Below, one piece after another: positions 18,801 to 26,504 of a stretch of 32,669 nucleotides of DNA (positions are counted from its first letter, which is position 1; each line of letters begins with the position of its first letter). Origin of the DNA: a bacterium (GTDB lineage: Bacteria > Patescibacteriota > Saccharimonadia > CAILAD01 > JADZBC01). The notes beneath the pieces are model-generated. The model did not search any database. It was not told the origin of the DNA and saw nothing but the letters and a program-made list of their open reading frames with translations. The stretch covers positions 1-32,669 of the forward strand of contig JADZBC010000017.1 in assembly GCA_020852295.1 (NCBI GenBank), read 5' to 3'. The translations under genes and the position numbers were made by a program.

Positions 18801-19712
18801 ATGCTGATCGACTCTAAGCATATCCCACCAGCGCTCAAGTCGCTCGAACTGCCGTTTCCACCGAAGATATTTTCACTACTGAGTGGTTTTTACAATTCAC
18901 AAAATCGCGGTAGCGGCATCGAGTTCTCTGAACTACGCGAGTATGTTATTGGTGATGAAGTACGTTCAATCGACTGGAAGGCCAGCGCGCGCGGTCATGC
19001 CACGTTCGTCAAAACGTATATCGACCTACGCAACCAAGATGTGATCTTTGCCATTGATGGCTCCTCCTCAATGGTGATGGGCGGCATCAATGATACCCAG
19101 TCGCCGCTGTTCATCGGCGGCAGCCTGATCGGGCTCATCATGCGACTCGCTCTGAATCGCGGTGATCGTGTTGGATTTATTTCAAGTCAGGATGATAGTG
19201 TCGTACGGAGCCAAACAACCGGTCAAAGTACCAAGGCACTTGGTATGTATTCACAGCAATATGCCGCAATTGCTACGGCCCAATATCAAATTTTGCATTG
19301 GGCAGACTTTTTGAAGAAAGTACGACTAAATGTGCATCGCCACTCACTCATCGTCTTTATTAGCGATGACTTTGAGGTAGATGATGTAATCCTTCAGCAG
19401 CATCGCCTACTGCGCGCGAGCGGACATCGGTTGTGGTGTATGCGCGTGCGCGGCAAAACCATGAACCCAGACGCTGTTTTGCAAAACTACAACACGACGG
19501 ATATCGAGACAGGGGAATTGACCGACTGGGCTGTTCTCGATAGGCGGGTGATGGCCGAGTACGAACAGACCGAGACGCAACGCAGTGCTCAAATTGACGC
19601 TCAATTGCGTGCCGTAGGCGTAGAAGTCGCCACTTTGGCTGATCGAAAGGGCGCAATCCCGCTCGTAGCGCACATTTTGCAAAGATATAAACGCAATAAA
19701 AACAAGACGTGA
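18801..19712 (+). CDS. DUF58 protein with VWA-like fold
   Basis: A 303-aa DUF58 protein. The family motif is clear at residues 40-65: IEFSELREYVIGDEVRSIDWKASAR fits ...YxxGDxxRxIDWKASAR. A VWA-like domain follows, with the metal-binding D-x-S-x-S signature intact (D86, S88, S90). No membrane helix is present; it is probably cytoplasmic, bound to the MoxR ATPase. The start lies 8 bases after the moxR stop and the stop overlaps the next ATG. The role in this operon type (envelope integrity, stress or complex maturation) is not settled for any member. Confidence 0.92.
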   Translation: MLIDSKHIPPALKSLELPFPPKIFSLLSGFYNSQNRGSGIEFSELREYVIGDEVRSIDWKASARGHATFVKTYIDLRNQDVIFAIDGSSSMVMGGINDTQSPLFIGGSLIGLIMRLALNRGDRVGFISSQDDSVVRSQTTGQSTKALGMYSQQYAAIATAQYQILHWADFLKKVRLNVHRHSLIVFISDDFEVDDVILQQHRLLRASGHRLWCMRVRGKTMNPDAVLQNYNTTDIETGELTDWAVLDRRVMAEYEQTETQRSAQIDAQLRAVGVEVATLADRKGAIPLVAHILQRYKRNKNKT

Positions 19713-24474: not shown

Positions 24475-26259
24475 TCAGTCAAGATGTGTTCCCATCTCGC
24501 GGGCGACCATGGTGGCGTAGCGACCGCCGAGCGCCATGAGCTCCTCGTGGGAGCCTTGCTCGACAATCTCACCGTCCTCCATGTAGCACACCGTGTCAGC
24601 CGATCGAACCGTGCTGAGGCGATGCGCGATGATGATGTTGGTGGAGCTACGGGAGCGAATCCGCTCATCCACCGTCTGCTGCACCAGGTGCTGTGACTCG
24701 GCATCGAGCGCACTCGTTGCTTCGTCCAGGATCAACACGCGGGGGTTACGCAGCAGCGCTCGCGCAATGGCAATACGCTGCTTTTGACCACCGGAAAGTC
24801 GCACGCCATTCTCACCAACCGACGTTTGATAGCCGGCCGGAAGCTTGGCGATGAACTCATCGGCGTGCGCCAGAATGGCGGCGGATTGGACATCGCCCTC
24901 ACTGCTCGACATGTCACCCATGCGGATGTTGTCCGCGATCGTGCCGTCCAGAAGCTGGACGTCCTGGCTGACCATGACCACCACGCGCGAACGCAGGTAG
25001 TCGTAGTCGTAGTCACGCAGGTCCACATCATCGAAGTAGGCCGCGCCAATGGTCGGGTCGAACTCACGACACAGCAATGAAGCGAGCGTCGTCTTGCCGG
25101 ATCCCGATGGGCCCACCAGCGCTACCGTTGCTCCAGGCTCGATCCGAAGATTGAGACCGCGGAGCGTATGGTCGCCGTTGTCGGAATAGCAGAAGCTGAC
25201 ATCGTCCAGCCTCACGCCACCACGCAAGTCACTTGGCACAGTCGGCTGAGCCGGCTGCGTGATCTGCGGTTGGGCGCGAAACAGGTCGATATAGACCTCC
25301 AGGGCGGAGATGCCCTCACTGATGCGGCGCTGCACATTCCGGAACTGATAGAGGTTCACGAAGACCCTCTGCAGCCACGTACTGAGCAGCACCACGGTGC
25401 CGACATCGCCGGTTTGCCCATACTGCTTGGCAAGCAGCAGGTACATGACCGGAAAGGCCAGCATCAGCGTGTATTCCGCCCGACGCTGGTAGTGCCGCCA
25501 CTGACGGTTGCGCGGGATATCCACTTGGTAGTGGTTCTCCAGCTTATCCCGGAAACGGCTCGCGAAAATCGCCTCCACCCCAAACTGCTTGAGCATGCGG
25601 GCCCGCGTGGACAATTCGGTGCCACGCGAGTGCATGTCAGTCCAGTCGTGGTGGAAGGAGTCATCGAGCTGCTTGATATGACGGCGGTAGTTGTAGCCCA
25701 TGACCACGCTGTAGCCGAGCACCGCCACCGATGCCAAACCGGCGAACAGCGGACTGATGAACAGCAAGACCACGATGGTCAGAACCACGCGTACAACCAG
25801 CGGAAGCCCTTCGTAGAGCAGGGCACTGACGAGGTTGTCGATGCGTTGGACGTTCTTGCCAATCATCGACTCCTTTTCGTTGGTGCCATGCTGGACATGC
25901 CAGGCCACATCCATACTGAGTTGCTTGGTATGACCAAAGCCAAACAGTAGGGTGTAGTCCTGCCAGTCCACCCAGTGACGGGTCAGATGCATGTAGTTGG
26001 TGACGACGCGAACGACGATGTCCACGACGATCATACTGCCAACCACGAGCGCGAGGTAGCCAAAACTCCGCTTCTGGGCGACCCCATCAACGAAGTACTT
26101 GATGGGGTAGAGCTGGATGATCTCCAGCAGTTCGGTCACGATCAGTAGGGCAAACGCTGTTCGGGCAGTTCGCTTGAGGCGAGTCACCGGAGCATGTGCC
26201 TCCGGATAGCGACCGATGAGCCCAATGAGCTCAAAGAGTTTACGGACAACACCCAGCAT
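24475..26259 (-). CDS. GC-rich ABC exporter (membrane plus ATPase fused)
   Basis: A 594-aa half-transporter of the ABC exporter (ABCB-like) type, likely a homodimer. Residues about 28-310 hold the membrane domain; the ATPase follows. Walker A is GPSGSGKTT at 383-391; the signature is LSGGQKQR, Walker B VLILDEATSALD and the H-loop IIAHRLSTV. ATG at 26259 is supported on the minus strand by AAAGGAG (26272-26266) 6 bases upstream. Codons are strongly GC-biased compared with the second exporter (29678-31480). The gene has the best promoter in the window, an unusually long structured leader and its own terminator hairpin. Possible substrates are peptides, lipids or drugs; sequence does not say. 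Confidence 0.93.
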   Translation of the reverse strand: MLGVVRKLFELIGLIGRYPEAHAPVTRLKRTARTAFALLIVTELLEIIQLYPIKYFVDGVAQKRSFGYLALVVGSMIVVDIVVRVVTNYMHLTRHWVDWQDYTLLFGFGHTKQLSMDVAWHVQHGTNEKESMIGKNVQRIDNLVSALLYEGLPLVVRVVLTIVVLLFISPLFAGLASVAVLGYSVVMGYNYRRHIKQLDDSFHHDWTDMHSRGTELSTRARMLKQFGVEAIFASRFRDKLENHYQVDIPRNRQWRHYQRRAEYTLMLAFPVMYLLLAKQYGQTGDVGTVVLLSTWLQRVFVNLYQFRNVQRRISEGISALEVYIDLFRAQPQITQPAQPTVPSDLRGGVRLDDVSFCYSDNGDHTLRGLNLRIEPGATVALVGPSGSGKTTLASLLCREFDPTIGAAYFDDVDLRDYDYDYLRSRVVVMVSQDVQLLDGTIADNIRMGDMSSSEGDVQSAAILAHADEFIAKLPAGYQTSVGENGVRLSGGQKQRIAIARALLRNPRVLILDEATSALDAESQHLVQQTVDERIRSRSSTNIIIAHRLSTVRSADTVCYMEDGEIVEQGSHEELMALGGRYATMVAREMGTHLD

Positions 26260-26316
26260 GGGGTGCTCCTTTCAGTCGGGGAACGGAACGGGAACTATGG
26301 TTGCTGACTTGTTAAA

Positions 26317-26392
26317 GAACACGCGCTATCACTGATAGCTAGTTGCTCAGACTGATCTCTGAGCGGCGTGTTCATTAAGAAGCGAGCAACTA
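26317..26392 (-). promoter_or_regulatory. Structured leader of the ABC exporter: three-way junction with competing pairing
   Basis: Read on the minus strand. Outer stem GAACACGC (26373-26366) pairs with GCGTGTTC (26324-26317). Inside it, hairpin one is GCTCAGA (26364-26358) with TCTGAGC (26351-26345), loop 6. After a 5-base linker, hairpin two is the palindrome GCTATCA (26339-26333) with TGATAGC (26331-26325). Upstream, TAGTTGCTC (26392-26384) is perfectly complementary to GAGCAACTA (26348-26340), which is the 3' arm of hairpin one plus the linker. CTCTGAG (26399-26393) is complementary to its 5' arm (26363-26357). The two folds exclude each other. The junction ends about 57 bases before the ATG. 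Riboswitch or attenuator behaviour is inferred, not shown. Confidence 0.65.
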
Positions 26393-26475
26393 CTCAGAGC
26401 AGCACCGTTGATGCGGCCGGAGCCACACCTGAGCCGAGACGGCTGAATGGTGTTACTTTTGACATAGTGGTCGCT

Positions 26476-26504
26476 ATTATAAGCATAAGCGCTCGACTTG
26501 TCAA
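26476..26504 (-). promoter_or_regulatory. Perfect consensus promoter of the ABC exporter
   Basis: On the minus strand TTGACA (26504-26499), a 17-base spacer and TATAAT (26481-26476): both boxes perfect. The predicted start near 26469 gives a leader of about 210 bases. It is divergent from the helicase promoter. The gene-free stretch 26260-26563 holds these promoters and the structured leader and nothing else I can see. Confidence 0.88.

Follow-up and report, generated by a model that had tools for sequence, protein, structure and literature searches.

A probable ribosome-sensing leader ahead of an ABC exporter gene, with a three-way junction as its predicted 'off' structure

The leader of a minus-strand ABC exporter gene was analyzed in a DNA stretch of 32,669 nucleotides (the window). 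The result indicated that this leader is likely a ribosome-mediated leader-peptide attenuator with an unusual three-way junction as its 'off' structure. The sensor would probably be a ribosome on the leader peptide, not a small molecule binding the RNA directly. The features of the leader, all on the minus strand, are as follows.

26476..26504 (-): consensus sigma-70 promoter TTGACA-17-TATAAT, with 12 of 12 consensus positions and GCGCTTATGC in the spacer
26394..26465 (-): predicted leaderless leader-peptide ORF MSKVTPFSRLGSGVAPAASTVLL followed by a stop, 23 codons; ATG 10 nt past the -10 box, stop codon UGA at 26396-26394
26384..26399 (-): switch block, made up of the last Leu codon, the stop codon and the next 10 nt; a ribosome at the stop codon would cover it
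26317..26373 (-): three-way junction of an 8-bp outer stem, hairpin 1 and hairpin 2, found in this genome only
26373-26366 / 26324-26317 (-): outer stem of 8 bp, GAACACGC / GCGTGTTC
26364-26345 (-): hairpin 1 of 7 bp, GCTCAGA-GATCAG-TCTGAGC
26339-26325 (-): hairpin 2, GCTATCAGTGATAGC, 6 bp and a 3-nt loop as folded
26300..26316 (-): 3' strand UUUAACAAGUCAGCAAC, which lengthens the stem of the junction through pairs with 26390-26374 in the minimum free energy (MFE) structure
26265..26289 (-): short hairpin GUUCC...GGAGC that would mask the Shine-Dalgarno site of the exporter, AAGGAG (26271-26266), by predicted pairing of its bases
24475..26259 (-): ABC exporter, the regulated gene, 594 aa, an ABCB/MsbA/Sav1866-like half transporter with PF00664 and PF00005

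Exporter, promoter and leader peptide

The exporter shares its domain order and profile matches with half exporters of the ABCB/MsbA/Sav1866 type, and its PDB relatives are ABCB1 and Sav1866. However, its NCBIfam matches are MsbA-related and those shown all lie far under the curated cut-offs. A genome search within the class gave eight orthologs with 32-37% identity. The leader set of the order comprised seven members, namely the window leader, L010, L012, L014, L015, L016 and L017.

The transcript was predicted to start at about 26470 (26471-26468), which is upstream of the structure; the first-pass annotation had regarded a start downstream of 26317 as fatal to its proposal. That annotation described the structures correctly but overlooked the promoter (26504-26476) and the leader ORF. 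Moreover, a partly palindromic element resembling GCATAAGC or GCTTATGC lies within the promoter spacer in all seven leaders of the order (window, L010, L012, L014-L017), and it is possibly an operator, as judged from its sequence. The same GCATAAGC spacer element was seen in a promoter at another locus, L067 (G000:C15:1-20000, about 16440-15950, minus strand). It is followed there by an apparently noncoding, probably structured transcript of ~470 nt, which ends in a terminator and has no curated Rfam match.

The leader ORF lies between the promoter and the regulated gene, and its translation is predicted. Its stop codon falls inside the switch block (26399-26384). A reassigned UGA was considered and rejected: UGA terminates 7 of the 24 long ORFs in the window, and the UGA at 26396-26394 was therefore taken as a true stop. 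In six of the seven leaders (window, L010, L012, L014, L015 and L016), an ATG stands exactly 10 nt past the -10 box and opens an ORF of 23-42 codons behind a consensus-like promoter. In the seventh, L017, the ORF is preceded by a Shine-Dalgarno site instead. As a separate observation, a second in-frame ORF of the window, MNTPLRDQSEQLAISDSACSLTSQQP followed by a stop (26374-26294, minus strand), begins at the junction foot without a Shine-Dalgarno site.

The codon changes between relatives indicate that selection acts on the leader peptide. Between L012 and L014, 21 of the 35 differences in the peptide ORFs were at third positions, and the amino-acid identity was above that of all random placements of the same substitutions (p <0.0002). 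The same held for L010 and L014 (p 0.0006 against random substitution placement), while the comparison of L010 with L012 was uninformative. Furthermore, the C-terminus of the window peptide (VAPAASTVLL, stop) resembles that of L016 (VSPASAAVLA, stop), with the third base differing in all five shared residues; the p of ~1e-4 is uncorrected for about 12 tests, and the likeness was spotted before the test. Between the window peptide and that of L010, too, there was a local match; its p of 0.004 is for one of 10 pairs, and by eye it reads LGSGVAPAAST against LGMATVPVRAT. No convincing alignment of the window peptide with those of L015 and L017 was found.

The promoter followed by ACTATG at the 10-nt spacing was searched for in 393 genomes of the class and gave 12 matches, and the reversed control gave none. 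Five of the 12 were the exporter leaders described here, and most of the others directly start genes of normal length, such as a ClpC-like ORF. This indicates that the clade uses leaderless starts. In addition, among the promoters of the same genome, ORFs that look L34- and L31-like by eye were seen to start without a leader.

Leader fold and alternative pairings

The ~210-base leader with a three-way junction proposed in the first-pass annotation was present, with hairpin 2 folding as 6 bp and not as 7. The 57-nt junction had an MFE of -28.1 kcal/mol and a z of -5.45, and none of 200 shuffles was as good. The full 215-nt leader reached -82.6 kcal/mol (z = -6.4). For comparison, 160 upstream regions were drawn from about 738 kb of this genome; their mean z was -1.0 with an sd of 1.7, and the leader ranked at or near the extreme.

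The claimed perfect complementarity of the block to both arms of hairpin 1 was confirmed. Nine bases, UAGUUGCUC (26392-26384), pair with GAGCAACUA (26348-26340), and seven bases, CUCUGAG (26399-26393), pair with CUCAGAG (26363-26357). When the upstream part was shuffled, a perfect match of 9 bases turned up in 0.8% of cases. A test of duplex energy between the ORF end and hairpin 1 fell short of significance (p 0.12). As modelled, the block overlaps the stop codon and can pair with either arm of hairpin 1, so that the position of the ribosome would alter the choice of hairpin.

The alternatives with the block could compete with hairpin 1 on roughly equal terms only as long as transcription had not gone beyond ~26325. 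Once the leader was complete, the junction was ahead by ~19 kcal/mol (-82.6 vs -63.6 and -63.0), and therefore any switching must be kinetic, that is, co-transcriptional. The idea that this is a regulatory leader whose pairings exclude each other is supported. In the MFE structure, the block also pairs with AGCAAC (26305-26300), which lengthens the junction, and it therefore also stabilises the junction that it supposedly opposes. The junction is followed by a weak U-tract, UUCUUUAAC, and no convincing terminator was found in the window leader. Since the hairpin at the Shine-Dalgarno site was predicted to be closed in nearly every modelled state, the modelling shows no route to a change in expression.

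Terminators in relatives and a second attenuator

For the relatives, the ORF end overlaps a terminator. L010, L012 and L014 each have an intrinsic terminator with a terminal U-tract, and its 5' arm pairs with the VSR codons (UGUCUCGAG) close to the end of the ORF; the arms in L010, for instance, are GCUCGAGA...UCUCGAGCUUUUU. In L015, there is a weaker version of this pairing with a different sequence (p = 0.08). The terminator arms of L014 and L010, as read from the sequences, co-vary from A-U to G-C, and the ORF pairing is kept by way of a G-U pair. On sequence grounds, this overlap is read as the classic geometry of ribosome-mediated attenuators of the trp and bmrB kind. These terminators were found by folding and by reading the sequence; a consensus terminator scan missed them, probably because their loops exceeded its limit. 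As candidate off states, there are thus terminators in four relatives, and in the window the weak U-tract and the almost always closed hairpin at the Shine-Dalgarno site.

Two further likenesses among the leaders were observed. L016 and L017 carry a nearly identical hairpin, GCGGTGCAGATGCATACGCACCGC, which lies at about -150 to -95 from the start of the exporter, and the rest of these leaders differs. L011 and L013 have long leaders (~500 nt, from about -540 to the start codon) with shared blocks and with short ORFs behind a Shine-Dalgarno-like site (MVVTLFTMVGA and MLIITFMSAGK, each with a stop). No tRNA- or tmRNA-like elements were found in these two long leaders.

The same genome has a second leaderless leader peptide, at L052 (G000:C9:240001-260000, about 15288-15130, minus strand). 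Behind a consensus-like promoter lies an ORF of 22 codons, MKQTANQFHYHFWNSHSAERSF followed by a stop, whose peptide is rich in aromatic residues and His. A 10-bp antiterminator stands at the ORF end (p = 2e-4), followed by a terminator with a U-tract and then by a gene for a HAD-like hydrolase, for which no close match was found in the other genomes of the order. From its sequence, the L052 leader is possibly an amino-acid-responsive attenuator.

Proposed mechanism and competing explanations

Similar arrangements have been described in other bacteria. In Bacillus subtilis, ribosome-targeting drugs slow the translation of bmrB, and an antiterminator forms ahead of bmrCD (PMC4191407). As in that system, the window has a short leader peptide ahead of an ABC multidrug-type exporter with the position of a ribosome as the proposed sensor, and four relatives show a terminator/antiterminator where the leader ORF ends. 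However, bmrB is about 162 nt long with its terminator within the ORF, whereas the window ORF has 23 codons, is leaderless and precedes a three-way junction that no good terminator follows. A further difference is that BmrCD is a heterodimer. The likeness to bmrB concerns mechanism only and is claimed without a comparison of peptide sequences. The macrolide-inducible leaders of erm, msrD and mef (ermCL, MsrDL; PMC10314930, PMC4335068) also have a short ORF on which a stalled ribosome reshapes a downstream hairpin and turns on a resistance gene. Their targets differ from that of the window, and ermC acts on the Shine-Dalgarno site, which may or may not be so in the window; again the likeness claimed is one of mechanism.

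The attenuator model builds on the computed promoter, ORF, ORF conservation, pairings and analogous terminator switch in relatives; within it we infer the translation of the peptide, the stall site, the inducer, and termination or a translation block as the off state. The transcript from about 26470 would be translated at once from the leaderless AUG at 26465, giving a 23-residue peptide. A ribosome reaching the UGA (26396-26394) would cover the block (26399-26384), hairpin 1 and the junction would fold, and the exporter would stay low. If a ribosome were held within the peptide, the block would be free during the transcription of hairpin 1; by pairing with one or the other arm it could hold up the formation of the junction, and the exporter would be made. 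The stall would most likely occur around the conserved V-x-P motif, caused either by a drug that targets the ribosome or by a nascent chain prone to arrest. Judging from the exporter type, the most plausible candidate inducer is an antibiotic of this ribosome-targeting kind.

In the first-pass annotation, the three-way junction had been suggested as the aptamer of a ligand-binding riboswitch. The strong multi-helix fold and the exclusive pairings in the leader of a transporter gene agree with this, but the tests against databases and relatives make it very improbable. Rfam gave only chance snoRNA matches to the leader at curated and relaxed thresholds. When a covariance model of the junction was run on the eight orthologous leaders, on ~705 kb of this genome and on all of the 16 remaining genomes of the order, no convincing further copy came up. 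The matches of the model at window 19076-19130 (minus strand, E 0.012) and to the junction's own complement were taken as chance or symmetry. The leader DNA, compared with its own genome, matched only itself and short chance stretches. Because the junction is absent from all the orthologous leaders and the 16 genomes, the expected covariation gives it no support, and the relatives are too distant for a covariation test of the window's own structure. No conserved aptamer with covariation across relatives was found, and the window's version of the junction may be lineage-specific. Moreover, a conserved leader ORF is present, and the relatives retain it without the junction.

An amino-acid-responsive attenuator of the trp type, in which scarce charged tRNA stalls the leader ribosome, would have the same leader-peptide architecture. 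Indeed, the relatives and the second leader of this genome show the ORF end, antiterminator and terminator geometry of trp/his-type attenuators, and the aromatic/His-rich L052 peptide is of the fitting kind. However, no single regulatory codon recurs in a run in the leader peptides of the exporters, the residues of these peptides vary between relatives, and what is controlled is an efflux-type exporter instead of a biosynthetic gene; this explanation was considered quite improbable. The leader might also be merely a structured 5' UTR that confers stability or insulates. In that case, a regulator that binds DNA might act on the GCATAAGC element of the promoter, and the small ORF would set the basal level and sense nothing. 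The spacer element shared by the promoters of all seven leaders is in agreement with this, as is the strong preference for one structure at full length, but peptide-level selection and the overlap of terminator and antiterminator in relatives are left unexplained. Such a structured UTR appears unlikely.

A more specific form of the leader-peptide attenuator can also be put forward. A family of leaderless arrest peptides with a V-x-P-x-x-[AS]-[ST] core, in an uncultivated lineage with small genomes, might act in the ribosome tunnel as sensors of an inhibitor of translation or of a substrate of the exporter, and a three-way-junction switch might have replaced the usual terminator in the window lineage. 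This is held as a tentative proposal, on the doubtful side. With similar reserve, the junction switch would have no described counterpart among leader-peptide attenuators.

The genome has 0.82 Mb, and its lineage probably belongs to the Patescibacteria, for instance to the Saccharimonadia. A literature search found no case of leader-peptide attenuation of a drug-type exporter for a reduced-genome, probably Patescibacterial lineage. The present leader points to control of a drug-type exporter by leader-peptide attenuation in such a lineage. In addition, the results suggest repeated use there of leaderless initiation and ribosome-sensing attenuators. The leader peptides are short and testable, and they could reveal compounds that these cells must expel.
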